The notes under the pieces are model-generated. The model searched no databases and had not been told where the DNA came from. It saw only the letters and a list, made by a program, of their open reading frames with translations. A program made the position numbers and the translations under genes. 64,000 nt of DNA from positions 930,001-994,000 of the forward strand of contig OX637805.1 in the NCBI GenBank assembly GCA_951802425.1, given 5' to 3'. This document shows, piece after piece, positions 8,045-54,167 of this stretch. Every line of letters starts with the position of its first letter. Within the stretch, counting starts at the first letter, position 1. Origin of the DNA: Clavaria fumosa (taxonomy: Eukaryota; Basidiomycota; Agaricomycetes; Agaricales; Clavariaceae).

Positions 8045-8378
8045 TGTCACGTCCGTGCTGCTCCCTTTGGGTCTGGACCAGAAACACCATCTCCAGTCCC
8101 GGACTTCCTATCTCCAGACCCCGACTTCCAATCTCTGGACCCCAACTTCCAATCTCTGGACCCCGACTTCCAATCTCTGGACCCTGACTTCCAATCTCTG
8201 GACCTGACCTCCGATCTCCGGACCCAGACCTCCGAACTCCTGCTCTGATGCCTCAGCATCTGAGGGTACCTGCCCCACACCCGGGGATAGTTCCCAAAGA
8301 GGCTGTCCCGATCCCGATCCCGATTCCCGATCCCGATCTCCGAATCCCAAACCCGACTTCCCGACTGTCATGAACCGA
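8045..8378 (+). repeat. 5' LTR of large element, segment 1 of 3
   Basis: Matches the start of the 3' LTR (30685 onward), beginning TGTCACGTCCGTGCTGC. It contains six to seven imperfect 21-bp repeats at 8090-8235 (TCTCTGGACCCCGACTTCCAA type) and a GATCCC microsatellite near 8310. It ends where Gypsy A is inserted; the four bases CCGA (8375-8378) are its TSD. Confidence 0.9.
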
Positions 8379-9296
8379 TGTAGTGGGTATTACGGTTCTT
8401 GCTGCAACTGCTTGATTACAGTCAAGTCCTTCAGGGGTTCCTGTAAGGCGTTAGAGATTCACCAAACACCCTTGAGGATGTGGAGTATGAATTCAAAATG
8501 TGTGAGAAATAGAAATATACGGTGTCCGGGATATTCTGCTATGTGTCCGATAAAATCCGATAAGGATGGTGCGATAAGACGAAGGGCCGGCAACGACGGA
8601 GGCCAGCGGATCGAAGGTTGCGACGACGGGTGAGCTTAGGTGAGGTTTCTAACAGAGAGAAGGGGTTCAGAAAGCTGTATTTCAGAGAGGTCCGGAGTGT
8701 ACTTAAGTACAGTTCTGTAAGTACAGCAAATTGGAATGTACGGAAATGTCCGGAAAACACATGGAACAGCGCCATGTCGCGTGAAGGGTTACATGAAGGA
8801 GTTATATCACAAGGGAAATGAGTAGCTCGGAGGAATGAAATGTCCGATAACTAGCAAATGTCCGGACCGCTCATAAACTGAAGGAAAGTGGGGCTGGTAC
8901 AGCAAAGGGGTACTAAGAACAATGGACAAGGTACTGCAAAGGGTTTGAAACGTTTAAACGATTGAATGGTTGAAAGGGATCATAATATGAAATTTACAGC
9001 ATGGTATATGAAATAAAGGAATGGGAATGGAATAGTGTGTATGTCGAGCGCTGACCGTGCTGGAGAGGTGAAATAGAGAGGCGTGGGCGGTGTGTGAGAG
9101 CGGTGGGCTGTGATCGTCACGGGGGATTGAAGACCGAAGTGTCCGACATCGGACATGTATCGGATACTATCGGTCGTTATCGGACGGTGTCGGATCGTTA
9201 TCGGTTCGTATCGCACGTAATTTCTTTGGATCGCAAAACATCCGGATAGTCAGTATCTGTCATGTTTCCGTGTTTAGATCGCATATGGTCCTTACA
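8379..9296 (-). repeat. Gypsy A 3' LTR
   Basis: 918 bp, termini TGTAGT...CTTACA on the plus strand. Same length and almost the same sequence as 17335-18252 and, inverted, 18483-19400. In element orientation U3 begins at 9296, so the CGG-triplet array (9129-9215) is in the first 80-170 nt of U3. The antisense gene starts 157 bp outside it. Confidence 0.93.
9129..9215. promoter_or_regulatory. Phased CGG-triplet array in the U3 of Gypsy A LTR
   Basis: CGG occurs at 9150, 9161, 9171, 9181, 9185, 9191 and 9202, mostly 10-11 bp apart and usually as TATCGG or ATCGGA. CCG occurs upstream at 9134 and 9143. The near-helical spacing puts most triplets on one face of the DNA. CGG/CCG is the half-site recognised by fungal Zn2Cys6 proteins, and this element carries such a gene starting at 9454. 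A function as enhancer or promoter for gag-pol (from the 5' LTR copy) and for the antisense gene is inferred. The same array is present in the other two LTR copies. Confidence 0.55.
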
Positions 9297-9453
9297 TTCT
9301 CCCGGGGGCTGAAAATGCAACCGCCCTCGGTTGCAACCAAACAAGGCCAAATAACGGTTTGTTGATCGTGAAGTACGCGTCGTGTGGGTGCACATAGGTC
9401 CAAACACACCCTTGTGTTTTCTCCAGCGACAGCAACACGTCAACTCTCCGACA

Positions 9454-10989
9454 ATGGAAAACTTCGATTCTTCAATCTTTCGAAACGCAGTCCAGGCGAT
9501 GACCGAGGCGCAGGCCATGGCGCCGGGCGAGGAGTTGCCGGATCGGGGGCAGGATGGAGAGTGCGCGGAGTGGGTGGGGACGTATGCGGGTGACGCGGTG
9601 CGTGAACGAGAATCTTTCGTACTTTTTTGTATCGCACTGACAACGTTTTTAGGACGATTTTCTTGCCGGATATGTGGCAGCGATCGACGACGACGTGGAG
9701 GTGGACGAGGGACTCGTCCGGGTCGCGCGAAGGCTCAAGAAGTGGCGGAAGCTCCGCGGGGACGAGTGGTCCGCTGAGCGGACGAGAAGGCGGGAGGAGG
9801 TCGAGGCCGAGAAACAGCGCACGAGCGAGGAGAGGGCGGCTACTGAGCGGGCCGCAGCAGAGGCGGAGGCGGAGGAGAGGCGGGCTGCCGAGAAGAGGGC
9901 GCGCCTTGCCCGGGCGCGCTTAATTGTCGTAAGTGACAGCGACGACGAGGGCGAGGCGGCGGCGGCGGCAACAACGACGACGACGGGAGCGGCGGAGTCC
10001 GGTGCAGCGGTGGTAACAACGACGACGATATCACCGGACGCCGGAGAGCTGCGTGTGGACGAGGTGGCGGCAGGGGAGGATCCGGACGGTCATCGGACCG
10101 TGTGGGGAACCGACGGGGTGACGCCCGTCGGTGTTATCGAGGCGGCGGCGGTGAGTGCGGTGGCCGGGGGAGGCGAGCAGTCGGTGGAGGAGCCGATGTT
10201 CGTGCACCGGGACGGTGCGCGGATGATGGCGACTCCGGTGTGGGTGGAGATCGCGAGGCGGAAGGCAGCGGAGCGAGGGCGAGGGAGGAGAGGCGGGGCG
10301 AAGAGCGACATAGAGTCCCGGGCTGCGCGGCAGCCTGGAGATAAGGTGAGTGGTTAATTAAGATATGTGAGGCTTTTTCGACGTCTGATATAATGATTAG
10401 GAGCACGTTCCGGGGTGCAAGGAGTGCACCCGGAAGTGGCGGGCGTGCTACGGAGTGGAGGGGATAGCGTGCCGGTGGTGCCGGACGTATAAGGTATCGT
10501 GCAGTCTGTCGGCTGTGCGAGGTAAGTGGTATTCTTTTTATTTTTCATGATGAGACAAATGATAGGTGTGTTTCAGGAGCGAAAACAGAGAGAGCGGCGG
10601 TATCCGGAACGGAAGGTATGTCGAGAAGGTATCGGGTCCGCATTTGCTAACGTATCGGAACAGGTCCGAAGGCGGCGGGAGCGAGCGGAAGTAAGAGGCC
10701 GAGGCGAGGTGCGACGCGGGTACCGGTTCGCGAGGAGACGACGCCGGAGGAGGAGGACGAGATTGAGGAGGATACCAGTGTGGAGCTGGTGGAGGAGCCG
10801 CCGGCAAAGAAGAAGAAGGCGGAGGCGGGACCAAGTCGGAAGGGTAAGGAGCGGGAGGTGGCGCGAGGGGTGTCCGGGAGGGAGGCGCTCGATAGGGCGC
10901 TGGAGATGATGGAGAGGGGGGCGGACCAGGTGAAGGCCGGAGCGGAGCTGCTCCGGATGCTCCTCCTTGGCGAGTCGTTCTCTAAGTAA
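9454..10989 (+). CDS. Antisense coiled-coil / Zn2Cys6-like protein carried by Gypsy A
   Basis: Spliced gene antisense to gag-pol, between pol and the 3' LTR. Exons inferred from open frame and splice signals: 9454-9597, 9653-10345, 10401-10521, 10577-10615, 10664-10989. The first three introns are 55 bp each and the fourth 48 bp, all GT...AG. Predicted protein about 440 aa. Residues about 60-135 form a highly charged Glu/Arg/Ala coiled coil, followed by an acidic Ser/Asp stretch and a Thr/Ala-rich region. Exon 3 encodes C-x2-C-x6-C-x7-C-x2-C-x6-C (from CKEC to KVSC), the spacing of GAL4-type binuclear zinc clusters. A basic KRPRR segment, a KKKK stretch and an amphipathic C-terminal helix follow. 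Nuclear DNA binding is plausible from the cluster but unproven. The uniform high GC and open frame suggest selection or recent origin. Confidence 0.72.
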
Positions 10990-11213
10990 ATATTTTGTTT
11001 TTGTTTTTATATATGTTTTTCTTTTTCTATTTGGTATGGTATGTCGTGTGGGATAAGTGAGGAATGTGAGAATGTGAGAAAATGGTTGAAAGAACGTCGG
11101 GTATAAAGTTTGGACTTGTCCGAAATTTCGATTTTTTTTTTTTTTTTTTTTTTTTGAAGGTGTGAATCAATGTGAAGTATAGAAAAATGAAGGATATGAT
11201 GGAGAAAAAATAC

Positions 11214-14200
11214 TTAATGGCGAGGCCGAAGGTTCCGGGTTGCTCCGGAGCGTTGCGGACGAGTTTCTGCAGTGTCGTCGTCGGTGGTTTCATTATCGGA
11301 TTCATCGGATAGGTCAGCCGCTTGGTTTTGCTCATCTTCTCTGTCGATAGAGTTGGGTGACGCCTCGTGTATTTGATAGGGAGAGATGTCCTCGTTTATC
11401 TCCGTCGTTTGGTCGATGATAGAAGTGACCGGAATCGATGTTTGCGACCTCGGATAGTAGGGAATGATGCGGAAAGCTGCGTAGTGGATTTTGGAAACGG
11501 CGCCGTCGAGTTCCGAGAGAATATAGGCGCCATATTGTGTTCGGCGAACGACGATCATCGGTCCGAAGAATCGCGGTTTTGTTTTTCGATTTAATTCCAT
11601 TTCAACGGCCGAATTGCGGATCAATACCAACGATCCGGGTTGGAAGTCGTAGTCGATAATAGACTTCCGGTGTGCGTCGATGAACTGCTTGACGGATTGT
11701 TTGCGGGCAGCGAGCACTTTATCGGCGATTGTTGCTAGATCTTCTTCTCGTTTTTGCAGTTGGCGGGCACGAAGGGCTATCAGTTCCGGAGTGGTCATCG
11801 GGGCGTCGGCGGTCGGAATTAAATATGTTGCTTCGGATATGTCGAAGGGGAAAAGCGGTTCGACGCCATGTGCGATGTAAAATGGGGAGTGGCCGGTGGA
11901 CCGTTGGATCGTGGTTCGTTCTGCCCAAATGACTGAGGGTAAAACGTCCGGCCATTTCGATTCGTCTCCATCTGCTGCTTTGATTAACGACTCACGGACC
12001 GATCGATGGGCACGTTCGATGACGCCGTTAGCGCGGGAGTTGTATCCGGATATACGGATGTGATGGATTCCGTACCGTTTCTTAAGGAAATCGAGGGCTT
12101 TGATAAATGGGGCTCCGTTATCCGTGATAATCTCTTCTACTGCTCCCCATCGGCATAGTATATCTTCGAATATGAAGGTTCCGAGAAGTCGGGCGGTCTC
12201 GTTTCGTAGCGGTCTTGCTTCCGGATATGCGGATAACGAGCATCGGGCGTGGACGAGAAGTCGGAAACCGCGGGCTCTTGGTAGGAACATAGTATCAATG
12301 TGCGCTCGACGGAAAAGACCGGCCGGTGTAGCGACCGTCGGTGGAATGAAGATCTTCCGGATTTGCCGAGTTTGGCATTGGTGACAAGTTTTGACAAACC
12401 ATTTTACGTCTTGATCCAGCACCGGCCACCAGAACCGATTTAGAATACGTGTCCGGATAACGTAAACGCCTTTGTGGCCGAGTGAATCGTGTGCCTCTGT
12501 GATAATTGCGAGACGTTTGTGGTCCGGAGGTACTACTTGGTGGTATCCGTTAGGTCGGCGACGCCATAATTTGTCATCTAGGATGAAGAACTCGGATGCG
12601 GAGCGGACCAGTCGTCGGAACTGGTTTGCGTCAATGCCGGAGGGACGGATCGGGTTTCGAAGGAAAGATTCAATTTTGCGAATCTGTTCTTCTCTTTTGT
12701 TTGCTGCATCGGATCGGGGTATAAGGACGGCGGAAGATTCGTTCGGGGTCGGTGATTCCTCGGGTGGTACCGTCGAATTGAGTAGCGTCGATCCTGTGTA
12801 AACTTTGAAGCGAGTATGGGTGATGCCGGCGAGTCGTGTCTCGGATGTGTAGGAAGCGTCCGGTGCTCGATTCATGTGTTCCATGGCGAATACGTAGCTC
12901 CGATCGATCCATTCTTCGTGATCTTCAGACTCGGTATCTTCTTCACCATCTGCGGCACGTCGGCGTGATAGTCCGTCGGCTCCGGTGTGCTTATCTGCGG
13001 GAATATGAACAAGATCGAAATCGAAGAGTAGTATACCGGCAATCCATCGATTCATGGCAGCGTTGGGTTGAATGTCCGGATTGTTTAGCATACCCTTAAT
13101 GAACTTCGCGTCCATTTCGACAGTAAATTTCGGAAGGCCTATAAGGTAAATCCGGTACGACCGAAGTGCGCGGAAGAGTCCGTATAATTCGATTTTTGCT
13201 TGTGAGTATCGGGCCTCGCGTTCGTTCCAGGTAATGGAGCCAAAGCGGGAGGGATATCGTATTCCATCTTCTCCAATTTGGAAGAGTGCGAAACCAACGG
13301 CGATATTTGATGAGTCGACGGCGAGGATTACGGGTTGTCCGGAGCGGTAGTCGATTGGTCGGATGGCGGATGAGTTCAGAATCGCGTGTTTGAGTCGGTC
13401 CATCGAGTTTTGTTCTTCTTTTTCGAATCTGAATGGCACGTCCTTGCGAGTTAGACTGACAAGAGGTCGGGCAAGTACGGCGTAGTTTTTAATGAATATC
13501 CGGAGTAGTCCGCAAACCCCTAAAAATGATCGGACATCGGTCAGGGTTTTGCAAGGAGGCCAGTCCCGGATACGCTGAACGTTGGAGGCATCCGGAACTC
13601 GTCCTTCGTATGTGCACGTATGTCCGGTAACGACTGCTTCGGGAACGCAAATTGTCGTTTTCTTGCCGTTAAAGGTTCCTCCGACTTTCTTGATTCGTTG
13701 GAGCACCCGGTTGACGTTATTTAAATGCTCCCAAACAAATCGTCGTATTTGCGGATTCTCAGGGATCGTCTCGTAGGTGCCGTCCGGAAGCTCGTATCGG
13801 GTTTCCGGGCCCTTGATCGCTACATCGTCTACGAATGGGATGGTTACGTGCGGAATTTCATCTTGTAGAACATGCGTGACGTCTCCATGCATAATCTGCG
13901 TCGCGTTGGTGTATCCCATGGGGACGCAGGTGAGCCGTTTTGCTCCGAGAGGGGTTTGAAACGTGGTGAGGTCTCGGCTTCGTTCGTCCAGGGACCGCTG
14001 ATCGAAGGAGACGAAAAGGTCGAGTGATCCGTAACATCCGCGTCCGGCGAATGATTCCGCAAAAACCTCCATTATCGGGGGGACCGCGGAATCGCCGATA
14101 GTGATTTTGTTAAGCGGCTGGAGGTTGTGCACGAGTCGGAGAGACTTTCCGTCTTTCTTTAACACGCAAAACCACTGGGACCGATAAGAAGAGTTGGATT

Positions 14201-14951
14201 CTTCATAAACGCCGGCTGCGATCTTTTCCCGGATTACTTTGAGAACTTCGTCGTAAATACCGGGGGGAATCGGTATATTTTTGAAGATCCAAGGGATATG
14301 TTCGACTGTCGGGATAATAATCGGATCGAAGTATTTTGCGTCGAATCGTCCTTTTTCGGTCTCTTTCCAAGCGAAGGCGTCTTCCTGGGCTTTAATAAGA
14401 TGGTGAACGAGTTTTTCTTCCTCCGGCCATAAGAATCCGGTGGGGTTGGCGTTGTGCGTGTCTTTCCGGTTTTGAGTGTATCGAAGACCGGGGGTGAAAT
14501 CGGGGGGATGGGTCGGAAGAGTTGGCATATCGGCTAGGGGGTCCGGGTGTCGGCGTCGGACAATCCGGAATTCTTTGGGTACTGTCGCTTTGATCGGATT
14601 GACGCGATTCGCGACTTTCTTATATTTCTTTCCCAAGTAAACTGGAAGAACGGCGTCCGTAGACAGGGAATTTATTTCGGGGGTTTTGTTGTACAAGGGG
14701 GTTGCAACATTTGGACGCGACGGTTCACTTCCGATAGCGACTGGGGAATCAGCGGAATCGAGAGAAACGTCCGAGATACTGATACAGGGGAAGGGGTCGA
14801 GAGAGACTGGGTTTATAAGGGAAAACGATAAGGGAACGTGAACGGAAGTAGGAAAAATGGCTGGAGTCTCGTATCTGGGTATAGCTTCCGTGTCCGCATT
14901 GATCGGAGGTAAGTCCGTTGGTTTGCGGACATTCGAGGCTCCAGCTCTCAA
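11214..14951 (-). CDS. pol: Gypsy A Pol: reverse transcriptase, RNase H, integrase
   Basis: Uninterrupted frame of 1245 codons in the -1 frame relative to the upstream gag-protease ORF; the frames overlap at the gag stop (14948-14950). Visible in order: RT with catalytic 'IPFVDDVAIKG' and palm/thumb region; RNase H with 'VILAVDSSNIAVGFALFQ' and 'FTVEMDAKFI'; an integrase HHCC zinc domain (H...GHKG...CHQC); integrase core residues in 'AHIDTMFLP', 'IITDNGAPF' and 'NGVIERAHRS' (DDE). The C-terminus is acidic, with no chromodomain recognised. All catalytic motifs are intact, so the protein could be active. How it is expressed (frameshift or re-initiation) is unknown; the in-frame start at 14951 is TTG, so a separate conventional start is unlikely. 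Confidence 0.93.
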   Translation of the reverse strand: MRAGASNVRKPTDLPPINADTEAIPRYETPAIFPTSVHVPLSFSLINPVSLDPFPCISISDVSLDSADSPVAIGSEPSRPNVATPLYNKTPEINSLSTDAVLPVYLGKKYKKVANRVNPIKATVPKEFRIVRRRHPDPLADMPTLPTHPPDFTPGLRYTQNRKDTHNANPTGFLWPEEEKLVHHLIKAQEDAFAWKETEKGRFDAKYFDPIIIPTVEHIPWIFKNIPIPPGIYDEVLKVIREKIAAGVYEESNSSYRSQWFCVLKKDGKSLRLVHNLQPLNKITIGDSAVPPIMEVFAESFAGRGCYGSLDLFVSFDQRSLDERSRDLTTFQTPLGAKRLTCVPMGYTNATQIMHGDVTHVLQDEIPHVTIPFVDDVAIKGPETRYELPDGTYETIPENPQIRRFVWEHLNNVNRVLQRIKKVGGTFNGKKTTICVPEAVVTGHTCTYEGRVPDASNVQRIRDWPPCKTLTDVRSFLGVCGLLRIFIKNYAVLARPLVSLTRKDVPFRFEKEEQNSMDRLKHAILNSSAIRPIDYRSGQPVILAVDSSNIAVGFALFQIGEDGIRYPSRFGSITWNEREARYSQAKIELYGLFRALRSYRIYLIGLPKFTVEMDAKFIKGMLNNPDIQPNAAMNRWIAGILLFDFDLVHIPADKHTGADGLSRRRAADGEEDTESEDHEEWIDRSYVFAMEHMNRAPDASYTSETRLAGITHTRFKVYTGSTLLNSTVPPEESPTPNESSAVLIPRSDAANKREEQIRKIESFLRNPIRPSGIDANQFRRLVRSASEFFILDDKLWRRRPNGYHQVVPPDHKRLAIITEAHDSLGHKGVYVIRTRILNRFWWPVLDQDVKWFVKTCHQCQTRQIRKIFIPPTVATPAGLFRRAHIDTMFLPRARGFRLLVHARCSLSAYPEARPLRNETARLLGTFIFEDILCRWGAVEEIITDNGAPFIKALDFLKKRYGIHHIRISGYNSRANGVIERAHRSVRESLIKAADGDESKWPDVLPSVIWAERTTIQRSTGHSPFYIAHGVEPLFPFDISEATYLIPTADAPMTTPELIALRARQLQKREEDLATIADKVLAARKQSVKQFIDAHRKSIIDYDFQPGSLVLIRNSAVEMELNRKTKPRFFGPMIVVRRTQYGAYILSELDGAVSKIHYAAFRIIPYYPRSQTSIPVTSIIDQTTEINEDISPYQIHEASPNSIDREDEQNQAADLSDESDNETTDDDTAETRPQRSGATRNLRPRH

Positions 14952-16945
14952 AAATCCGGATGCGGTTTCTTGTTCTTCAAGGATTTGCGGATCGGGATTC
15001 GCTCCTTCGTTGGCACTATGATTCTTTCTCCGGTGTTTGGATCGTTGAGAATAAGGTCCTGGGCCCCGTGGGGATGGTCAATCGTTTGGGAACCGGTTAA
15101 CATGAAAAACGGTCGTCCGACAAGAACCTCGCAGGGCAACGTGTCTGCTACTTGCATTTGAACATGGAATGTGCACGGACCGATCTGTAGGGGGAAATTC
15201 TTGATGAGTCCGAGGGTCGGAGCGATGGTGCCATGAGAGGATTCCATGTGAATAACGTTCTCGGAGTGTAGTGGGTTGCCGAGTTTCTCCCAAACGTCTC
15301 TTCGCATTGCCACGATTGAGCTGCCTTGGTCGAGCAGGCACTCCGCGGCGATCCGGTTGTCCAATATCCCTTCTACGATGCGGAGCGGAGCAGCGTCGAC
15401 GGCGACAACAAGATCGGAGGTGTCCGGGACCGTAATGTTTGTATAGAGCGTATCCTGTACGACGGACGCGGTGACCGGAACGCGACGAGCGGTAACCACA
15501 TCCTTCATCTTTTTGCGGATGTCTCCGGAAATGGCGAGTAGTTCGCGAGGTGTGACGCGGACTGGCATGTCGAGTGCGCGATCGAATACTTGTTGAACGG
15601 TTACCGGATTTTCGATCAGAGCTTGGTAATGGTACTGGACGTCGGGTCGTTCGATTTTCTCCGGCTTTGATGGACGAGTGACCTGAGGCGGCGTAATAAC
15701 AACGGCGGGTGGGGGCGGTAACCTAGATGGCTGAGGATCGGTATTCCTGGGTGTGGGTGCTTTCCTTTTGCCCTTGTCTACTTTCTTCGCGACATCGTTT
15801 GCAAAGGTGCGGACCATGTTTTCCAACACGGTATTCTCGTCATCTTCCTCGTCCGAATCGTCTTCCATGTCCGGGGGGTGAGCGGATTGTCCGATCGGCT
15901 GTGCTTCAAATACCGCGGTTGTCGCCGGTTGCGTGTTCTGGGATTGGTATGTAGCGTAGTACTTGTCGAAGCGCTCGGATAGGTTGTTCCCTGAGATAGT
16001 GCCTGGCAAATATCGTCCGGAGGGGAGACAAATCCTGCCTTCTGTGTTCCGTATACATTTGCCGGACTTAATGTATTCGAGGGCCTTCGGACAGGCACTA
16101 ACAAAATGACCTATTTCCGAACAGAAATTACACGTCCGGCCTGCGGGAGAGTTCGTTGTCCGGGGAGCGGAGTGTCTTGCCGGTTCGAGAGATTGGGCTG
16201 TCAAAATCGATTCCAGGCGAGCCATTGTGGAAGCGAATGTTGCCCAGGCTGCGGACATATCAAATTCTTCCTTCTTGACTACCGGTTTCGTTTCTCTCCC
16301 GGGGGCTGAAGATGCGAGACGGACGGGTCCGGAAAGTTGATCAGTTGTCGCAGAGTGGGGGGACGTCGAGGAGAGAAGAAATTCAGCTGCACCATGTACT
16401 TCATTCATGGGGTAAGGATCCTCCGGATGGTGGTTTGGTAGTATGATAGCGAGTCGGCTTTCGATCCGACGCCTTGTATGATCCCCAAATCCGAGGATGT
16501 AAAGTCGGTTCCTGTCATTTGTGGACATACGCTGTGATGTGATCAAGTGCGAGGTGATCCGGAGAAAGTCCCGATAGTATTCTCCGTGTTCTGCGCGCGT
16601 GTAAACTCCCTTTTGGGCCGAGTCCGATATGAAACGGTCCAGGTCGGCGACGGAAAATAAGCGACCTCCATCAGATCCTGGATAAAGTCGTCGGACGGCC
16701 GCTTTGAAGGTATCCCACGTCCATACCGGGTCCGGGTCAGGTGAAAGAGTCTCCCAGAGGAGACACGTATCGGTGTCGAGATAGTGCTTGGCGTACCGAA
16801 TTAAATCGGGTTCTGGAACGTCCGGGTTGACGCCGGTGAGCACGATGTCGATGTCCTCGAAGTACCGGTTGAGGTGTGTCGGTACTCCGTCAAAGGCAGG
16901 GGCCCCGTGGGCGCCACGGAGCGGATATCTCGGTTGGTTGGCCAT
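14948..16945 (-). CDS. gag: Gypsy A Gag-protease polyprotein
   Basis: 665 codons starting at ATG 16945 ('MANQPRYPLRG'). The N-terminal two thirds of the first half is a retrotransposon gag/capsid-like helical region. A CCHC knuckle (CNFCSEIGHFVSAC) lies near residues 270-285. The C-terminal part contains a retropepsin-like segment with 'CLLDQGSSIVAM' (Asp-Gln-Gly-Ser in place of the usual Asp-Ser/Thr-Gly) and 'CEVLVGRPFF', so gag and protease share one ORF. It ends Asp-Phe-stop in the context TTT TGA, overlapping pol in the -1 frame. It is preceded by a leader of about 390 nt from the 5' LTR. Intact. Confidence 0.9.
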   Translation of the reverse strand: MANQPRYPLRGAHGAPAFDGVPTHLNRYFEDIDIVLTGVNPDVPEPDLIRYAKHYLDTDTCLLWETLSPDPDPVWTWDTFKAAVRRLYPGSDGGRLFSVADLDRFISDSAQKGVYTRAEHGEYYRDFLRITSHLITSQRMSTNDRNRLYILGFGDHTRRRIESRLAIILPNHHPEDPYPMNEVHGAAEFLLSSTSPHSATTDQLSGPVRLASSAPGRETKPVVKKEEFDMSAAWATFASTMARLESILTAQSLEPARHSAPRTTNSPAGRTCNFCSEIGHFVSACPKALEYIKSGKCIRNTEGRICLPSGRYLPGTISGNNLSERFDKYYATYQSQNTQPATTAVFEAQPIGQSAHPPDMEDDSDEEDDENTVLENMVRTFANDVAKKVDKGKRKAPTPRNTDPQPSRLPPPPAVVITPPQVTRPSKPEKIERPDVQYHYQALIENPVTVQQVFDRALDMPVRVTPRELLAISGDIRKKMKDVVTARRVPVTASVVQDTLYTNITVPDTSDLVVAVDAAPLRIVEGILDNRIAAECLLDQGSSIVAMRRDVWEKLGNPLHSENVIHMESSHGTIAPTLGLIKNFPLQIGPCTFHVQMQVADTLPCEVLVGRPFFMLTGSQTIDHPHGAQDLILNDPNTGERIIVPTKERIPIRKSLKNKKPHPDF

Positions 16946-17312
16946 TTGTATTGGTGCGTGGGGCGGTGAGTGAACTTCGTCTGGTGAATTCTGAGGTGTT
17001 TCGGGCGGGAAATGAAGGATGTCTGGTTCAAGGGGAAGTGGTGTAAGCGGTGAGTGTGGTTGTTCGAAGGTCTGTGGTAGTGAGGGATCCGGAGTGGTGA
17101 AACTCGTGTGGGAGTAGACAATGGATGAGATACTGGGAATGTCCGATGGAAGAAGGTGGGAAGTTTCAATTACTTCTCCGGGGGGTTCGGAGGGCGGTGG
17201 TTCTGTGATCGGATTCGGGTTTCGACTTCTCAGGCGTTCGGAGCGTCGAGGCTGAGGAGCGGATGAGCCTCTGGGAATCCTTGAGGGTGGTAGTGAAGAC
17301 GTCTTGTTGAAC

Positions 17313-17330
17313 CCCTCGCGGTGGGCTCCA
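17313..17330 (-). other. Probable primer-binding site of Gypsy A
   Basis: Four bases inside the 5' LTR (17335), the minus strand reads TGGAGCCCACCGCGAGGG, beginning with the TGG expected opposite a tRNA CCA end. The distance and sequence fit a PBS. I could not assign the tRNA with confidence. Confidence 0.5.
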
Positions 17331-17334
17331 GAAT

Positions 17335-18252
17335 TGTAGTGGGTATTACGGTTCTTGCTGCAACTGCTTGATTACAGTCAAGTCCTTCAGGGGTTCCTGT
17401 AAGGCGTTAGAGATTCACCAAACACCCTTGAGGATGTGGAGTATGAATTCAAAATGTGTGAGAAATAGAAATATACGGTGTCCGGGATATTCTGCTATGT
17501 GTCCGATAAAATCCGATAAGGATGGTGCGATAAGACGAAGGGCCGGCAACGACGGAGGCCAGCGGATCGAAGGTTGCGACGACGGGTGAGCTTAGGTGAG
17601 GTTTCTAACAGAGAGAAGGGGTTCAGAAAGCTGTATTTCAGAGAGGTCCGGAGTGTACTTAAGTACAGTTCTGTAAGTACAGCAAATTGGAATGTACGGA
17701 AATGTCCGGAAAACACATGGAACAGCGCCATGTCGCGTGAAGGGTTACATGAAGGAGTTATATCACAAGGGAAATGAGTAGCTCGGAGGAATGAAATGTC
17801 CGATAACTAGCAAATGTCCGGACCGCTCATAAACTGAAGGAAAGTGGGGCTGGTACAGCAAAGGGGTACTAAGAACAATGGACAAGGTACTGCAAAGGGT
17901 TTGAAACGTTTAAACGATTGAATGGTTGAAAGGGATCATAATATGAAATTTACAGCATGGTATATGAAATAAAGGAATGGGAATGGAATAGTGTGTATGT
18001 CGAGCGCTGACCGTGCTGGAGAGGTGAAATAGAGAGGCGTGGGCGGTGTGTGAGAGCGGTGGGCTGTGATCGTCACGGGGGATTGAAGACCGAAGTGTCC
18101 GACATCGGACATGTATCGGATACTATCGGTCGTTATCGGACGGTGTCGGATCGTTATCGGTTCGTATCGCACGTAATTTCTTTGGATCGCAAAACATCCG
18201 GATAGTCGGTATCTGTCATGTTTCCGTGTTTAGATCGCATATGGTCCTTACA
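17335..18252 (-). repeat. Gypsy A 5' LTR
   Basis: 918 bp, near-identical to 8379-9296. Followed on the right by the TSD copy CCGA (18253-18256). In element orientation it reads TGTAAGGACC...ACCCACTACA and drives gag-pol leftward. Confidence 0.93.
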
Positions 18253-18256
18253 CCGA

Positions 18257-18482
18257 TGTCCATGGTTACTCCACCAGCAACGAACTCCGAGCATGGAAAC
18301 CGGACAATCCACGCAGTTGCTTGGCAGCGTAGTTACCAACCTGATGGTAGTAGCATCTGACTCTGGGATCAGGAAACTGATCCCTGTTGTTATTCCATTG
18401 TTCCGTAATAAGTCCTGCAACATATCTCCAGGACATTCTCCATAGCTACCGTCAATACTCCGGGTTGCTGGAAATGCCCCGG
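18257..18482 (+). repeat. 5' LTR of large element, segment 2 of 3
   Basis: 226 bp matching the 3' LTR around 31029-31255 (TCCATGGTTACTCCACCAGC...). It is bounded by Gypsy A on the left and by the solo LTR on the right, whose TSD CCGG occupies 18479-18482. Confidence 0.9.
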
Positions 18483-19400: not shown

Positions 19401-19404
19401 CCGG

Positions 19405-23100: not shown

Positions 23101-23448
23101 ATCCGACCCTTGGAGCAACTTAGCGAAGCAATGCTATGACCTCCGAAGTGCTGTCGCAAGTAACAAGTTTCACTTGTATTCCGACTTCCGGCACAAACTC
23201 CAACACGAAATCCAGTACTCCTAAGCTGAACCTTTCCCTGAAACCCGAACTCCAAATCCTGGAATCTGACTCACTGAAATTGTTCGACTCGCAGGTTTCT
23301 AAGTCCAACTCCTGCATAGGAACTGGTCGCAGATGTCTACTCTGCGTATCCGACACCACCCAGAATTTACTCCGAACCAGTCTCCGATCTCTGGCTTTTC
23401 TGCACATGACTTAATTCACACAAGTCCGAACAAGAGAGCAAAGTACAT
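20113..23448. other. Interior of the large LTR element, no recognisable gene
   Basis: About 3.3 kb of C-rich sequence with very frequent ACTCCG, TCCGGAC and TCCGACC motifs. All frames are short and I recognise no gag, protease, RT, RNase H or integrase on either strand. It may be the non-coding body of a non-autonomous element or a heavily mutated coding region. A minus-strand frame at 23120-23407 could be a downstream exon of the antisense gene at 29220-30474, split by the Tc1 insertion, but this is weak. Confidence 0.5.
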
Positions 23449-23450
23449 TA

Positions 23451-23662
23451 CTGTCTTTTTCAGGTAAGTTGGCGGAGTTCAAAATTTTGACTAAAAAGGT
23501 AATCCCACCAAAAAAATTGCATAGCTCGCTGAATACTGAACAGAATGCCTTTGGTGGTACACCGTAGTGATCCTATGAATTAGTAGTATATACCTATCAT
23601 AGACCGAGAGTAAAAAGATGTAAAAAGAAATTTCCAATTTTTGACTTGTGAGTGCATGAGCA
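23451..23662. repeat. Left terminal inverted repeat of the Tc1-type element
   Basis: 212 bp, an inverted match to 28977-29188 with about eight substitutions seen by eye and no length change. Confidence 0.92.
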
Positions 23663-23722
23663 AGACAAATGACACTGATCACATAACTCAAGCAATGACA
23701 GGAGTGAGGACACAAAAGTAAA

Positions 23723-25640
23723 CTACTGAATGGCTAGGCGAGGAACAATCAGCCTCCCAGCCTTGATATCTGCCATATCTTCTTCGGCATACTGAAGAAT
23801 AAGCACGACTGTGCCAACCGGCACACCCAACCATTGGTGCATGTCTGTCAATGAAAAGAACTGTAAGGTGAGCTGTGAAATGCGGATAAAACCCTTCTCC
23901 TTCAGTACCAGACCATACGGTGCAAATTTAATCCCATCCTTGTTCCGGCCGGCATGTGCGTCAAGGTATCGGCACCAGGTAATAATGTCGGGTATTTCGA
24001 TTGGATGCGAGCTTCGATCAGCATGCGGTGGACCAGATGGCACAGGAGGCTGATGTGCGAGGTGGTGGCAGGGAGCCGGAGGTTGTGGAACGTAATGGCA
24101 GCTGTGACCGCAGCATCCATGTTGACTGCTACGCCCAAAATCAGGTGCTGCCGCAGAGACTGGCGCTCGTGCATGTGGGCGAGCATCATGTAGATAGAGG
24201 TTGGCAGGCTTCGTATCCACAGTAGTGCGCTTCTCAAGCTAGATGGCATGTGAGAAGACATTCAAGACTCAGCAAATAAATGGACATACAATTTCAATGG
24301 CCCAAAAGCGAATCTGACTATGAGTAAGCGTGTAACAGACACCTTGTGATTGCCAGCAGTATGCGTCTTGCCCTTTTGAATGATTCTCGCACCTCCAGTG
24401 TTGCTGTAGTTTGGCAATAACTCTGAGCCGCTCATCACGCTGAGAATCTTGCAGGTTCTGTGAGTCATCTGTGACTGCAGTAGAGCGAGCAGTCGAGGAT
24501 TTGCTCTGTCAAAATTATTGTCAGTCGAAAAGGTATAAGGGGAATAGAAACATACCTTCTTACTAGTAGTCTTGCTCAAATCTATCGGTTCACGAGTCAC
24601 AGTATCAGGAGAACTGTCTTCAAAATATACAGTTACGGGTCTGAGTGCACGAGTCGAAATTTTTCCATTGGTGAGCTTCTGAGGCACAATCAGCAGCCTC
24701 ATCCGGTCTTTGAAGATCTTGAGTTCGTCATTGGTTTGAATTGATGTCGCATTCGCCTTCGGCTTGTCAGTATCAAGACAATATCGCAACTGGAGAAGCC
24801 CAGGGAAGCATCGAAGCTTCTCAGCAACAAGGATTAAGAGACTGTCCAACAGGACCAAAGACGAGATCGAGAATGGGAGATTGCTCCCGTCACGGCCTTT
24901 CACAGCAGTGGCAATAGTGAAATCTGAAAGAGATCATGGGCATTTGTCTTCAGAAACAAGACGGGAGACTCACCGCATGTTGTGGGGTCAGGATGGTCAA
25001 CTTCGACACTCTGGGCTCTTGAGGGCTTGGGGCCAGGCTTCCTCCTTGCCGGCTGTACTACTTCCTGCATGCGGAGGGTCTTTGCACGGTGTTGGAGGAC
25101 TTCATCATCGAAATCTGATTCATCTTCATCAATACTATCATTGCTGGACTGATGTGAGTCTTCTTCTTCATCTATAGACAGGAAACGAGTGAACGATTGC
25201 ACAGTTTCTTCAGGCAAATCCTCCTCAGTAGCCTCCGAGGCATTCTCGTCCTCATCTTCGATAATAACCGGTAGGTGAGCCACTCTTCTGTCAGATGCCA
25301 TGTCTCTAGCGTCCCGAATGCTGCCTTGGTGATGTTGGGGCTTCAAGCGATCAGAGTTGGGAGCAGTACTCTGAGATCGACCGCGTTTCTGTGGGATTGC
25401 CGCAAGGGGCTGACTTGGAGGATGGCTGGGAAGATCGCAGCCTAGTTGTGGTTCTGAGTGTGCCGCAGGGGCAGAACTGGCTCGGGAAGGCGTTCGTTGC
25501 TTCTTGCTGGGTTCTCGACTCGTATTCCTCACTCGCGATCGGGTTGAGACTTGAGCCCCAGTGAAGAGTGCGTTGACACCCCGTGACTTTGGCTGACTTG
25601 GGTCGATGCTGGTGATCAAATCTGACATCGACTGGCACAT
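23723..25640 (-). CDS. Multi-exon cargo gene of unknown function, probably frameshifted
   Basis: Start taken at ATG near 25625-25640. The first exon encodes a Ser/Pro/Arg-rich low-complexity region, then an acidic Glu/Asp stretch and 'RRKPGPKPSRAQS', resembling an AT-hook-like basic segment. Splice signals follow near 24975/24919 and 24555/24507, and after about 24343. Exon 2 holds a globular domain: 'FTIATAVKGRDG..LPFSISS', then 'EKLRCFPGLLQLRYCLDTDK' and 'TSIQTNDELKIFKDRMRLLI', with a beta-grasp (ubiquitin/PB1-like) look that I cannot confirm. The last part is helical and ends 'GRLIVPRLAIQ'. Its two halves lie in different frames around 23990-24010, so an indel or missed intron is likely. 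I do not recognise the family. Confidence 0.5.
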
Positions 25641-25704
25641 TCAGACTCGTGTCGTACTTAGAACCTGAATAGAACTCATTTTCCCCCATCTCTGCTTCCA
25701 TTTC

Positions 25705-26048
25705 ATGGCCATGGGGTCTGGAACGAGAATTTGCACATGTCAGAAGTACTGTCAGGCCCCTCCCGAAGGCCGGGCAATTCCAACACGAACCTGGTATGAT
25801 CATGCAGCACAGCGTGAGTTGGAGGCAGGAATGGGCTTAGAGGAGCGTGCAACCCAACAATCCTGGGTTAGAAAGAGACAACGTGGTTTCAATGAGGTGA
25901 GTAATATTATATATGCCTCTGAGCCAAGTCAAACTCATCTCTAGATAACCTTCAGAGCAAATTTTACAATCAACATCGACTCTCTCAGTGGCCCGCTGAC
26001 TGTACAAGGTTCGAATCGTGCTGCTTCTACAATGGCAAATAAATTCTA
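25705..26048 (+). CDS. Small cargo protein with Cys-rich N-terminus
   Basis: ATG 25705; first exon to about 25896, then a short GT-AG intron (acceptor near 25944) and a second exon to TAA near 26046, giving roughly 100 aa. The N-terminus contains C-x-C-x3-C followed by a Trp-Tyr-x2-His segment (residues about 10-32), reminiscent of a short zinc-binding element at the start of many basidiomycete transposon proteins. Function unknown. It is divergent from the minus-strand gene whose start lies about 65 bp to the left, so the two may share a promoter. Confidence 0.4.
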
Positions 26049-26099
26049 ACCTCGACTGAAAATCATCCTCTATCCCAACCTGTCTCGCTCAATCTTGCC

Positions 26100-27044
26100 A
26101 TGCAAGGATCTCAGCAACCCCGCCCTTCTTCGCTTGACATGCTCAATCCTGTGTCCCAACCTATGCTGCTGCCTGCCCGCCCTATATTCTCCACAGCAAA
26201 CCTTAACCCTGTCCTTCAAACGCTTCGCGAGAAGGTCAAGAAACTTCCAAAACACGTCCCTCTGGCAAATAAAACACATCCGCTCGCCTCCTACAGCTTG
26301 CCACCCAAAGACTTGACGAAGGACATTGCAAACGATGCAGACATTTGGGAGGTATGGGATCAGAAGCTCAATGTGCTTCTCCCGCACAAAATCGACAATA
26401 TCAAGCCCCTTGTCATACGTGGAAAGTTTGGACTGGTTGGGCTGGTTGCCCTTCTCGAGCACCTTGTTCAAGATCGCGGGGTTGATGCGGGACTTTTGGA
26501 GGAAAGGTCAAACGTTTAGTCGAGGCTATTGACAGGTAACTCCATTACTCTATTATTCAATCTACTGACATTTGTTTTCATTAGCTTTGTCAATTCAAAA
26601 GCAAGTCCGTCAACGTCGACTAGTACCCAGCAGGCCCAGCAGCCAGTTCATGTGTCCGAAATAGCAGTCACCACAGCGCCGCAAACACAGAAGAAGGCTG
26701 GAAAAGGTGGCCGAGGCTCGTGGCAGCCGCCACAGACTGTGTCACCAAAGTAAGTGGTCCGAATTCTTGTCCATTCTCTTGTGTTGTGATGGCTTTATAG
26801 ATGGGAATGTGCTCGCGAATGGAAGGCCGCAAATCTAACTGGAACTCTGGGCCAATTTGAAGAGTTCTGGAGTGACGTTCAACAGGACAAAGAAAAGCTT
26901 CAGGTATTTTACTTTCTTTGCCGTAGCTCAGCCACTTATCCAGCTTGTTTTAGACTTACAATGATCGTGTCAAGGTATGCTAACGCTTTCTTTCATCTGT
27001 ATCATTCTTACGAGCATTTTCAGACTGCAAGATCACGAAATTAA
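26100..27044 (+). CDS. Cargo gene of unknown function
   Basis: ATG 26100. The first exon encodes a Pro/Leu-rich start and a helical region ('DADIWEVWDQKLNVLLPH', 'FGLVGLVALLEHLVQ'). The frame as written stops at 26517-26519, but one extra base would continue as 'VKRLVEAID' into a splice donor at about 26535, so a one-base deletion is likely. Following exons (Ser/Thr/Gln-rich linker with KKAGKGGRG; 'WECAREWKAANLTGTLGQFEEFW'; a 21-nt micro-exon) have good GT-AG borders and end at TAA 27042-27044. No known domain recognised. Confidence 0.5.
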
Positions 27045-27311
27045 TGGCCACTACATGCTCAGGGAAAGGAGGACGAGCAAGGAAGCGAAGGAGAAGGCTG
27101 GAGAACGGGCGAGCGATGGAGGAGGCCAGGGAATGGGTGAAGCAATTGACAATTGTACAAGTTTTCTGATAATATCAGAAATGCTGGCTACAATCGACTG
27201 ATCAGGCAGGGACGGATTGAGCCAGGAGTTGTGCGAACTAATGGTTTGGGGTGATGTTATCCGACTCAGTCAGTTTCTGTCACATAGTGTCAGCTAGTGT
27301 CAAAGGACTTC

Positions 27312-27610
27312 TCACTGGGCTTGAGCAGGCACACAGGATTTCTCGAGTCCGGCGATAACACATTTCTGGCATTTTTCAGACCCATCTACGTATTCGCATT
27401 TGACTTTTCGACCTTTGCAACGTGCACAGGTAGCCCTAGTGGGCAATTGCACAGGCAATGCTGGCTGGAGAGTGCCAGGTGCATCTGAGAAACAAGAAAA
27501 AAGTATTATTTTATCATTGAAATGTGTGGAAATAAACACTAGAGCTGACCGGTTTGCTGCTGGGGTACCTTGGCTGCAGCTTTCTTGCGTTTTCTTCCTT
27601 GGTTGGGCAT
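27312..27610 (-). CDS. 77-residue Zn2Cys6-like protein
   Basis: Two exons (27610-27550 and 27484-27312) joined across a 65-bp GT-AG intron give a 77-residue protein starting 'MPNQGRKRKKAAAK'. Residues about 40-71 read CARCKGRKVKC ... CQKC ... C with spacing C-x2-C-x6-C-x8-C-x2-C-x8-C, including the basic C-x-x-C-K-x-R-K-x-K-C signature typical of fungal Zn(II)2Cys6 DNA-binding domains. There is no activation or dimerisation region, so it is essentially a bare DNA-binding domain with a basic N-terminus. It lies downstream of the transposase on the same strand, within the terminal repeats. It could bind the element's ends or act as a competitor regulator; both are inference. Confidence 0.7.
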
Positions 27611-27759
27611 TTGTTGAGTGTTGTGGGGGGACGCAATTGCAAAAAGCACGAGCCGCGTGACAAGTCCATCCCGTGCGCAAAACATCTTCAATTCACATTT
27701 GAATTCGACACAACTACAGTACCTTACAAACAGATATCAAGTACATGGACATTCAAGTA

Positions 27760-28931
27760 TTAGACATAGCCGCAGTGGTGATACCAACCATAAATGTCCA
27801 GAGCTGAGGTTGAATAGACGGCTTTGAAAAGACACTGATAAATCTCCTCGTCGGGCATCTGAGTCATTGCCATTCGGGTGTAGTCTCCTTCTCGGCGGAG
27901 ATGGTACTTCATGCGGGAGAAGGCGAGTTCGATGGGATTGTAGTCAGGGGAGTATGGGGGAAGGAACTCGCAGCGTATGCCTCTGGAATGTCCATAAGTA
28001 CATGAAGCGAGTGCAACACCATCCACACACCTTGCCTTGATCAGCTGCTGGATGTTGGGGTGTTTATGGATGCAGCAGTTGTCCAAGACAATCACAGAAT
28101 TTGGCGCAGGGTAGGGTTGCATGACATCGAGGAGATTTTCGATAAATCTTGAGAATGTAGCTGTGCAGAATGACCCTTCCACGATCTCGCAGTGCAGGAT
28201 GCCATTATCCAAGGAAATAGCAGGGAGCACAGAAAAACTGGAAAGATATTAGCAGTAGTATAACGAATCATTACCAGGCTTACCGCCGGCCACGGATAAA
28301 AAATGCTTTGCGTTGTGCTTGAGTTCCTCGAATCGACCAAGCACATCCACGATATGTTGTCCTGCGATCGACCGAGCTCTCGTCCACAAAAACTAGCTGA
28401 TTAGCATCATACTTGCTGATTCTATCAAGGTATTCGAGCCGTTTCTCAGCTGAACGTTCTGCTGCTGTCCGGGTCACCTGCAAGAACCAGCATCAATGAT
28501 TTAGATCAGTTTCAATTTGTTAACTGACTTTCTTGAGTGTAAAGCCTCCCCTACGAAGCATCCGCCACACTGTTGAACGTGAGACCGTCTGACCGCAGGA
28601 GGCTGCAAGCATCTCTTGAAGCTCGTCTAAGTACAAATCCGGGGTCTGCTTGACTGCTCCTAACAGAAACTGGGCAAAGAAGGGTGAGAGAATTGATCAG
28701 AAGCTGCCATTCACATACCTCAACATCCAGATCACGTAGGTATCTGCGCCTCCTCTTACGCTCTTCCTCCTTATGATCGATGGTTCCATGCACATTGAAG
28801 AAGGAGAGTACTCGTTCGACAGTGCGTTGTGAGGTGCCTGTATACATGGCAATGTCTACAGGTTTGAGCAAGGAGGAGAGCCGGATGATGGTCCAATGCA
28901 CAGCGGCAGGGATCTTGCCCCCTCGCGCCAT
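27760..28931 (-). CDS. Tc1/mariner-superfamily transposase (DD34E)
   Basis: ATG 28931 ('MARGGKIPAA'); about five exons with short introns (around 28723-28675, 28527-28480, 28287-28240 and 28030-27983). The N-terminus is a helix-turn-helix domain ('VDIAMYTGTSQRTVERVLSF', then a second HTH 'TVSRSTVWRMLRRGGF'). Catalytic residues are in 'VFVDESS', 'VIVLDNCCIH' and 'SPDYNPIE', with 34 residues between the second Asp and the Glu after joining the last exons. No disabling change seen, so the gene may be functional. The strand is the same as the Zn2Cys6-like mini gene. Confidence 0.88.
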
Positions 28932-28976
28932 GAGAGGCGATGTTGAACAGCAAGTTCAACTCCGATACACACCGAC

Positions 28977-29188
28977 TGCTCATGCGCTCACAAGTCAAAA
29001 ATTGGAAATTTCTTTTTACATCTTTTTACTCTCGGTCTATGATAGGCATATACTACTAATTCATAGGATCACTATGGTGTACCACCGAAGGCATTCTGTT
29101 CAGTATTCAGCGAGCTACGCAATTTTTTTGGTGGGATTACCTTTTTAGTCAAAATTTTGAACTCCGCCAACTTACCTGAAAAAGACAG
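28977..29188. repeat. Right terminal inverted repeat of the Tc1-type element
   Basis: Inverted partner of 23451-23662; ends ...GAAAAAGACAG next to TA at 29189-29190. Confidence 0.92.
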
Positions 29189-29219
29189 TAAGTCAAAGAA
29201 AACAAAGGAAACTATGTAC

Positions 29220-30474: not shown

Positions 30475-30670
30475 GCCTGATGGTGGTGGTTCAGGTCTAA
30501 GGAGAAAAACCGGACTTAGGGCATGAGCTCGGACTTATATATCCAGGCTCGGAAATTCAAACTCCGCCCGAAATTCCCGATCTGATACTCCGTGGAATAC
30601 TCTGATCCCATCACAACCTGATCTTCTCCAACCTCCTGGCTCCGATCTAAAGGTCTCAAAGGTTTGACCT

Positions 30671-30682
30671 TAAAGGGGAGGC
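30671..30682 (+). other. Polypurine tract of the large LTR element
   Basis: TAAAGGGGAGG directly before the 3' LTR (TGTCAC at 30685), as expected for a plus-strand primer. It sets element orientation. Confidence 0.6.
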
Positions 30683-30684
30683 AC

Positions 30685-31952
30685 TGTCACATCCGTGCTG
30701 CTCCCTTCGGGTCCGGACCAGAAACACCATCTCCGGTCCTGGACTTCCTATCTCCGGACCCCGACTTCCAATCTCCAGACCCTGACTTCCAATCTCCAGA
30801 CCCCGACTTCCAATCTCCGCACCCGACCTCCAATCTCCGCACCCAGACCTCCGAACTCCTGCTCTGATGCCTCAGCATCTGAGGGTACCTGCCCCACATG
30901 TGGGGCAGGCACCAAACCCACACCCGGGGATAGTTCCCCAAGAGGCTGTCCCGATCCCGATCCCGATCCCGATCCCGATTCCCGATCTCCAAATCCTGAA
31001 CCCGACTTCCCGACTGTCATGAACCGACGTCCGTGGTTACTCCACCAGCAACAAACTCTGAGCATGGAAACCGGACAATCCACGCAGTTGCTTGGCAGCA
31101 TAGTTACCAACCTGATGGTAGTAGCATCTGACTCCGGGATCAGGAAACTGATCCCTGTTGTTATTCCATTGTTCCGTAGTAAGTCCTGCAACATATCTCC
31201 GGGACATTCTCCGTAGCTACCGTCAATACTCCAGGTTGCTGGAAACGCCCTGGACTCGTAGTATATATACCTACCTACTTCGTAGAGTATTCTGTAGTCC
31301 GGATACCGCCCTCATATACCCATGTACACCCTTCCCGTATACCCCCGAACTCCCCCGCACTTCTGTCCCTCCGTCCCTCCGTACTTCCGCACCTCCGTAC
31401 CCGGAATCCCATCCCCCTGTCTATTCCTGCACTTCTGTCCTTTCCACCCACCACCTTGTAAGATGTATAATGTCTAATCCGACCCTCGCCCCCCGTCTCC
31501 TATGCCAGTAGAGCTAAGTCCTGACTGACTCCTGACCAACTCCTGACCGACTCCTGGCTGAGTTCCATCCAACACCCGGAATCTGTCCCGACCTCCGGAA
31601 ACCATCTCCGAACTCCGGAACTCCATCCTCCGACCCAACCCCTGTCCCTGCTCCTAGTCACTTGTTAACCCCAAACTCCGTCCAAACTCCGTCTCTGCCC
31701 TCTTGTCCATTCCTTGCCTATAATATGGTGAAGTCCAATCCAGACATCTCACCTGAGCACCGGACCCAAGATCCCGAATCCTGCAACCTCGAAATATGGG
31801 ACACCCAGGACTCAGTAAGGGCGTTGTTTCAATATGTTCGCCAAAGTCCCACCCGAACCCCGAAGTCCTATTCCGGATGTCCCGGACATCCCGGACCCGA
31901 ACTCCGAACTCCGACCGGACTTCACCCCAACCCTCCGAGTACGCACATAACA
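30685..31952 (+). repeat. 3' LTR of the large element
   Basis: 1268 bp, TGTCACATCC...ACATAACA, followed by TSD CATAC (31953-31957). Matches the three 5' LTR segments. Contains the CCG-bearing 21-bp repeats at 30730-30860 (U3), a GATCCC microsatellite near 30955, a TATATATA stretch near 31263, and many CTCCG motifs downstream. Confidence 0.92.
30730..30860. promoter_or_regulatory. CCG-bearing 20-21-bp tandem repeats in the U3 of the large element
   Basis: Five to six copies of (A)TCTCCGGACCCCGACTTCCA with period 20-21 bp; the 5' LTR carries a slightly longer, more mutated version at 8090-8235. The least mutated copy carries two CCG triplets. Two DNA turns per repeat would keep the triplets in register. 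The array lies 50-175 bp inside the LTR, between the LTR edge and U3 promoter sequence, and 255-385 bp from the start of the divergent Zn2Cys6-like gene. The regulatory role is inferred. Confidence 0.5.
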
Positions 31953-31957
31953 CATAC

Positions 31958-51598: not shown

Positions 51599-51849
51599 TG
51601 ATGAAGTGAGTACGCTTCGCTGTCGCACTGCTACCCATTTGTCTCGGCTCGGCTCGCTACAGAGAACGGCGGCACACGATGCGCCGCATCCTTGTGCCAC
51701 CCTTCCTCCTTTGTTTCTTGTGAACACTGTGCCATAGTTTACCTGTAGTTAGTACTTATACAGTTGCTTCGCACTTGTAGGAGTTCACATGTTCTCTTTC
51801 TTACTGCGTGAACTCCAGCTTCATTACTGGTGTGCCTGCACTGTTGAAA
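51599..51849 (+). repeat. Copia 5' LTR
   Basis: 251 bp, TGATGAAGTGAG...GCACTGTTGAAA. gag begins with the ATG at 51854, four bases downstream; the leader is therefore almost absent and the primer-binding site must overlap the start of gag. Confidence 0.88.
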
Positions 51850-51853
51850 GATT

Positions 51854-54156: not shown

Positions 54157-54167
54157 TCACCCCCCTC

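Follow-up and report, generated by a model that had tools for sequence, protein, structure and literature searches.

A 64-kb window of the Clavaria fumosa genome (C12:930001-994000, within 48.8 Mb in 17 contigs) holds two nested long terminal repeat (LTR) retroelements, the Ty3/gypsy element A and the larger element B, and each of them carries a spliced gene between pol and the 3' LTR on the opposite strand. This arrangement is found in most copies of families A and B, in both with coding constraint on the antisense gene, and it is also found, as judged by coordinates, in most copies of a third family, C. The two encoded proteins appear zinc-cluster-like, and the U3 region of LTR A contains CGG triplets spaced by about one helical turn upstream of the antisense gene, with weaker arrays in family B and arrays in some members of family C. 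We propose that the gene in each element encodes a family-private DNA-binding regulator of the element's own LTR, a reading to which we assign a probability of about 0.48.

Antisense genes in three retroelement families

Element A is a Ty3/gypsy element, as reverse transcriptase (RT), RNase H and then integrase follow each other in a single pol open reading frame (ORF) (RVT_1 265-445 with 28.0 bits against a cut-off of 29.6, RNase H 510-638, integrase H2C2 808-864). Its antisense gene has five exons and four canonical GT-AG introns, with the six-cysteine (C6) motif entirely within exon 3, and does not overlap gag-pol. The genome search scored the best candidates only, and the counts are thus lower bounds. 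It gave at least 36 full-length copies of the gene region at 96-100% identity (best 40 of 159 candidates scored), and the search with the protein gave at least about 46 further divergent loci at roughly 63-80% among the matches listed. Twenty divergent and 20 recent copies were retrieved for comparison, and the exons could be lifted over in 38 of these 40, leaving out L013 (insertion) and L003 (one exon edge unmapped). All four introns are GT-AG in each of the 38 lifted copies, the C6 motif is present in 34 of them (absent in L018, L036, L038 and L039), and the frame is intact in 18 of the 20 recent copies. A previous sequence-only reading of this DNA had placed the antisense genes of both elements about 150-220 bp inside the 3' LTR and pointing away from it, and they were indeed found at 157 bp in A and 210 bp in B. 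The layout also recurs in other family members, since in each of the 20 divergent A copies the distance between the LTR end and the gene start is about 150-170 bp, and families B and C agree by coordinates.

Antisense gene A is under purifying selection, with a constraint somewhat weaker than that on gag-pol. A codon alignment of the window copy with seven of the 18 lifted divergent copies (11 were dropped for stops or frame) gave a mean synonymous divergence (dS) of 0.429, a mean nonsynonymous divergence (dN) of 0.112 and a median dN/dS of 0.27, the ratio being below 1 in 28 of 28 pairs of these eight clean sequences. The medians by region are 0.12-0.39, with 0.19 for the cysteine region (range 0.08-1.48), and in two short regions, the N-terminal and the cysteine one, some pairs exceed 1. 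In a second count, where divergent copies were each compared with the window copy and stops were skipped, dN/dS was 0.25 for the antisense gene (0.23-0.27; 19 copies), 0.17 for pol (19 copies) and 0.10 for gag (18 copies), only the median being used for gag since five of its rows with dN near 1 (L001, L004, L007, L017 and L020) look misaligned. The antisense gene is free of in-frame stops in 7/19 copies, pol in 0/19 and gag in 3/18.

Element B, with LTRs, a target-site duplication (TSD) and no working gag-pol, is a non-autonomous LTR element. Pairing with a pol remnant was seen for 14 of the 19 entered B gene rows, always on opposite strands. Leaving aside the query ORF of the window itself, all 13 paired remnants contain stops, and exon 2 of the antisense gene is stop-free in 12 of the 19 rows. 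Nine B rows have the same 117-aa frame with a TAA. The interior of element B was read letter by letter in the window copy and judged by the reported stops in the other copies, and the pattern is most simply read as B having spread with a non-functional gag-pol while retaining its antisense gene. In this gene the single intron divides the C6 motif, and two further copies retain the intron, the motif and the reading frame, the pairwise dN/dS among the three copies being 0.36, 0.30 and 0.50. In all three a TATATAA, which may be the core promoter of the gene, occupies positions -67 to -61 relative to the ATG.

Family C is marked by weaker matches to protein B (about 40-50%). For 18 of its 26 entered gene loci an RT domain lies 3.25-3.75 kb downstream from where the gene starts, the 21 RT rows used for pairing having been picked by position among 150 of 1667 candidates. 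In these 18 loci the gene and the RT are on opposite strands without exception, and seven of the 18 RTs are in open frames of 1241 aa. The best-scoring intact relatives of the B pol remnant are family C RTs, with a small margin over other gypsy RTs and over a short stretch, so that B and C are tied together more strongly by the antisense gene than by pol. The two elements of the window had been described as unrelated, and the selected antisense genes fall into two lineages (A, and B with C) that have no detectable protein similarity. Common descent of proteins A and B was rejected, as BLASTP finds nothing (best E 1.5).

Zinc-cluster-like proteins and phased CGG sites

Both antisense proteins have a charged helical region, then the six-cysteine motif and then basic stretches. 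The motif predicted from the letters, C-x2-C-x6-C-(7 or 10)-C-x2-C-x6-C, was read in both after the charged helical region, with x7 in A and x10 in B. The Zn2Cys6 proteins of fungi, for which CGG is the usual recognition triplet, have the spacing C-x2-C-x6-C-x(5-12)-C-x2-C-x(6-8)-C, which fits A and B, and the motif is present in all three B copies; the stricter PROSITE pattern is matched by five of the eight A sequences and by neither window protein. When the region was isolated and compared with Zn_clus (PF00172; cut-off 21 bits), A scored 11.7 (window), 16.6 (L001), 10.0 (L015) and 9.1 bits (L016), and B, with two stretches each, 15.9 (window), 12.4 (L042) and 21.7 bits (L041). The A region is colinear with the profile in the window copy and L001 (5-37 to 2-33), and in L015 and L016 its second half alone matches the profile start. 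Judged by the best stretch in each of the three copies, the halves of B appear to match in swapped order, the first to profile positions 16-31 or 18-31 (window and L042) and the second to 2-15 (L041); by itself the second half matches 2-15 at 16.3 bits and the first half has no match. A sequence search of the PDB gave zero zinc-cluster matches. We describe both proteins as zinc-cluster-like, a borderline assignment that does not file them as Zn2Cys6 members.

In a large protein collection, where roughly 8000 best word-sharing candidates were scored, protein A has four homologues (P0001-P0004) at 54-67% identity over 12-51% of the query. They cover the exon-2 part of the gene and stop at or soon past the exon-2 boundary, and the gene A family seems to exist in other organisms. 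The same searches gave no homologue of protein B at E <= 0.001, and viral contigs gave no match to P0004 or to the pol of element A.

The CGG/CCG arrays noted earlier in both LTRs were borne out for A, and for B only in part, since triplet density there is ordinary and the chain of CGGs at 20-21 bp is less distinctive. The six CGGs of LTR A (9150, 9161, 9171, 9181, 9191 and 9202) have a spacing of 10-11 bp, about one helical turn, and this chain was matched by 0 of 500 dinucleotide shuffles; by plain triplet count the 90-bp cluster has p 0.012. Within the window, chains of at least four CGGs at 10-11 bp occur in the three A LTRs and at 5878-5920 only. In the region 200-350 bp upstream of the ATG the lengths of such chains sum to 88 over 21 A copies, compared with a shuffled mean of 25.6 and maximum of 32 (500 shuffles), and as the copies share ancestry this sum is one signal and not 21. 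A strict array of four CGGs is found 261-293 bp upstream of the ATG in 10/10 recent A genes and 239-275 bp upstream in 4/9 family C genes (contigs C1-C3), where about 0.003 per gene is expected. A fifth family C gene (C1:4396157) has an array by a CCGG pattern, which occurs at 27 places as against 16 for its control, and second copies of the family C arrays lie about 7 kb away, as two LTRs would predict.

The A arrays differ in length among copies, and CpG decay is seen throughout. Their length in divergent copies steps by about 10 bp (61, 71, 80-82 and 91 bp), and CGGs have decayed in many of these copies. The five in-register CGGs keep their CpG in 88/105 cells, compared with 43/79 for the four other array CpGs (16% vs 46% lost; Fisher p 1.7e-5, with cells that are not independent); when the edge site at -310 is counted, the others are kept in 61/100 (39% lost, p 2.9e-4). 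CpGs elsewhere in LTR A are kept in 558/816, and a site-level test gave p 0.012. The grouping was chosen after viewing the alignment, and these values are therefore supporting evidence only.

In family B, CGGs at -282, -261, -241 and -221 from the ATG are retained in all three copies, and the 20-21 bp chain has 4, 7 and 4 members, a length that 0, 0 and 2 of 500 shuffles attained, respectively. A 6-bp repeat farther upstream is missing in L042, and the 90-bp stretch with the most triplets (p 0.001) is in the far part of LTR B. Simple triplet density was rejected as evidence for B, the whole element being CCG-rich.

The density of CGG/CCG in elements A and B is several-fold above that of the window at 32000-64000 (10.7 per kb), with 76 per kb in the A gene, 60 in A pol/gag, 41 in LTR A, 62 in LTR B and 84 in the B gene. 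A motif similar to the chain at 5878-5920 recurs elsewhere in the genome.

The proposed regulator and other explanations

According to our proposal the promoter of the antisense gene would lie within or beside the 3' LTR, and the zinc-cluster-like product of the gene, presumably binding zinc and dimerising through the charged helical region, would bind the phased CGG sites in U3 with a specificity for its own family. From there it would control its own antisense promoter and, by way of the identical 5' LTR, also the sense transcription of the element. Family B lost gag-pol yet kept the antisense gene, which makes activation slightly more likely than repression. Relatives could supply gag-pol to B, but would hardly supply a matching regulator, and the retention of the gene in B is the strongest argument that the gene works for the element carrying it and that the version of a relative could not take its place. 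A regulator with its target in its own LTR had already been suggested from the letters; the real, selected genes speak for that suggestion, as do the CGGs at helical spacing that precede the ATG by about 220-310 bp in A, B and some C copies, and the triplet density of B does not. It is tempting to speculate, although we find it doubtful, that fungal LTR retroelements run private regulator-operator circuits like those of phages, in which even elements without gag-pol must keep a regulator of their own. The arrangement would then have arisen or persisted in at least two lineages of one genome, with proteins that are no longer alike, and the protein of the B/C lineage would have swapped half-motifs, as seen in B.

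Several observations weigh against this proposal. Full-length proteins A and B have no match to Zn_clus at E <= 1, a genome scan with PF00172 does not list the two genes, zinc_ribbon_6 scores slightly above Zn_clus for the A window region (13.9 vs 11.7 bits), and the AlphaFold model of the 40-aa A domain is poor (pLDDT 50.6). The strict CGG array is found in 0/15 divergent A genes and 0/9 B genes and is missing in 5/9 family C genes, a backward control pattern outnumbers the CGG pattern across the genome (507 vs 277), and of the 72 strict arrays on contigs C1-C3 a distance rule left 41 without an assignment to any element known to carry an antisense gene, a few of the 41 being misassigned A LTRs. 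In the A copies L014 and L020 the relaxed chain is no better than in their own shuffles, and six divergent copies (L009, L013, L014, L015, L017 and L018) have chains of four CGGs at 15-16 bp. At 10-11 bp the test fails for the window copy of B (p 0.998) and is marginal for the other two (p 0.028 and 0.026), LTR B has an ordinary number of triplets in its first 320 bp (p 0.157), and two more 20-21 bp chains of four occur in the window outside LTR B (13298 and 22431). These other 20-21 bp chains, together with the other spacings in A, weaken the case for B.

The strict four-CGG pattern was abandoned as a general marker since it fails in divergent A and in B, and the chain test was used in its place. 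Some of the unmatched arrays are a few kb from RT matches where no A, B or C gene was found, and a different antisense gene may be present there.

The arrays could instead be neutral minisatellites in CpG-rich LTRs, or sites of a host zinc-cluster factor, with the function of the antisense gene unrelated to them. The 10-bp length ladder of the A arrays fits slippage, element B is CCG-rich throughout, arrays such as that at 5878-5920 of the window have no A, B or C gene found near them, and the CGGs of many divergent A copies have decayed. On the other hand, in-register CpGs decay less than their neighbours (16% vs 46%, or 39% counting -310), and the distance from array to ATG is similar in lineages whose proteins are dissimilar. 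We consider this explanation unlikely. An involvement of RNA rather than protein, for instance double-stranded RNA that dampens the element, is very improbable: antisense transcription as a means of regulation is proposed for plant elements in passages of a review (PMC7264820), but the introns, the frame and the dN/dS of 0.23-0.27 in 19 A copies show selection at the level of the protein.

The antisense protein may also be a nuclear accessory factor of integration, acting in chromatin tethering, nuclear import or target choice, while the arrays are incidental or mark the element's own complementary DNA. The four bases left of the LTR are NCGN in 20/20 recent A copies (two of which share one flank), and with the TSDs CCGA and CCGG in the window this indicates that CG is part of the target choice of family A. 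Accessory roles for antisense ORFs, termed aORFs, are proposed in parts of the same review (PMC7264820), and the retention of the gene in B, which has no gag-pol of its own, is compatible with such a role. A strict CG target is however more simply a property of the integrase, the TSD of B is CATAC, and the helical phasing at promoter distance is left unexplained; we regard a role in integration as quite unlikely. Among the divergent A copies the boundary is readable in 11 of 20, with NCGN in five and the decay forms NTGN or NCAN in six, as for insertion at CpG.

Known antisense genes and other features of the window

Antisense genes of LTR retrotransposons have long been known, with no established function according to passages of a review (PMC7264820). 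In position, orientation, presence in most copies and the DNA binding suggested for TRP28, the genes described here are like the plant antisense aORFs, as partial accounts present them (PMC7264820, PMC11963269), and the same accounts give a nuclear localisation for the antisense product of Grande. Retand (PMC11963269) is alike in further respects: DNA binding is predicted for its antisense TRP28 ORFs, tandem repeats are located close to the gene, and some of its members are non-autonomous. Unlike the plant aORFs, the genes of A and B are fungal, spliced and appear zinc-cluster-like, and they come with CGG sites inside the LTR where the plant elements have repeats in the internal region; there was no TRP28 match. 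The antisense gene brtn of Boty-like elements in Botrytis cinerea is likewise an extra gene of a fungal LTR element, compared here by description only, and the portions of the accounts that describe it mention no array (PMC7264820, PMC8365987, PMC5987419).

The gene HBZ of human T-cell leukaemia virus type 1 (HTLV-1) is similar in being an antisense gene driven from the 3' LTR that encodes a nuclear regulator, as partial descriptions have it. HBZ is a basic leucine zipper (bZIP) protein and not a zinc cluster, it belongs to a retrovirus, and no homology is claimed. The likeness to fungal Zn2Cys6 proteins lies in the six-cysteine spacing and the basic residues, with the differences that here the charged helical region precedes the cluster rather than following it, that the Pfam scores are mostly below the cut-off and that the halves of B are swapped. 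No account of antisense zinc-cluster genes in basidiomycete retroelements was recognised among the titles and abstract openings of partial lists of open-licence PubMed Central (PMC) papers. Antisense genes of this kind are thus already known, and what is new, as far as these searches show, is the zinc-cluster-like protein together with helically spaced CGGs in its own LTR, and the keeping of the antisense gene in a family with a broken gag-pol. For the genes described here there is a candidate motif for binding, a candidate target within the element itself, a family that serves as a natural control (B) and a choice of three families for swaps, so that the function of an antisense gene becomes a question for binding and reporter experiments. 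If the proposal is true, fungal retroelements would have an HBZ-like or phage-like self-control, and it would become visible how LTR arrays and regulators change together.

The features are listed in Table 1. The range 8045-31952 singled out by the sequence-only reading coincides exactly with element B, including its two LTRs and the TSD CATAC. The left LTR of B, at 8045-20112, is interrupted by element A, which is inserted in it with identical 918-bp LTRs and the TSD CCGA on both sides (8375-8378 and 18253-18256), and by the solo LTR A with its TSD CCGG (18479-18482 and 19401-19404).

Table 1. Coordinates of the elements, genes and sites in the window
Feature	Position	Strand	Remarks
Phased CGG array in U3 of LTR A	9150..9204	+	250-304 bp upstream of antisense ATG
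Antisense gene A, 440 aa	9454..10989	+	gene model
Exons of antisense gene A	9454-9597, 9653-10345, 10401-10521, 10577-10615, 10664-10989	+	
Antisense gene B, 393 aa	exon 1 30474-30007, intron 30006-29934, exon 2 29933-29220	-	
TATATAA, candidate core promoter of antisense gene B	30535..30541	-	between LTR and ATG
CGGs at 20-21 bp spacing in U3 of LTR B	30693..30756	-	219-282 bp upstream of antisense ATG
Element A, Ty3/gypsy LTR retrotransposon	8379..18252	-	identical LTRs, TSD read from sequence, pol/gag matches
3' LTR of element A	8379..9296	-	
5' LTR of element A	17335..18252	-	
pol ORF of element A	11214..14951	-	RT, RNase H, integrase zinc-binding domain
gag-type ORF of element A	14948..16945	-	zinc-knuckle and protease matches below cut-off
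Inverted solo LTR A	18483..19400	+	TSD CCGG on both sides; within left LTR of element B
Element B, large LTR element	8045..31952	+	TSD CATAC at 8040-8044 and 31953-31957
Broken pol remnant of element B	21073..21561	+	
3' LTR of element B	30685..31952	+	
DNA transposon with terminal inverted repeats (DDE_3 ORF)	23448..29191	-	inserted in element B

The DNA transposon within element B is 5.7 kb long with 215-bp inverted repeats and is outside the proposed system. Its DDE_3 ORF is at 27763-28248 (-), and it also has a Zn_clus match at 27330-27428 (-), with 23.3 bits in the genome scan and 20.8 against the cut-off of 21 in a second scan. Outside elements A and B there are tandem arrays of GGAG-containing units at 4476-5608 and 2833-3188, with periods of 13, 33 and 151-177 bp. 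Copia-type pieces are found in 51599-62400 (gag_2 at 51854-52528 and RVT_2 at 59795-60730), and a gypsy-type RNase H piece at 55493-56470 lies between the gag_2 and RVT_2 pieces.

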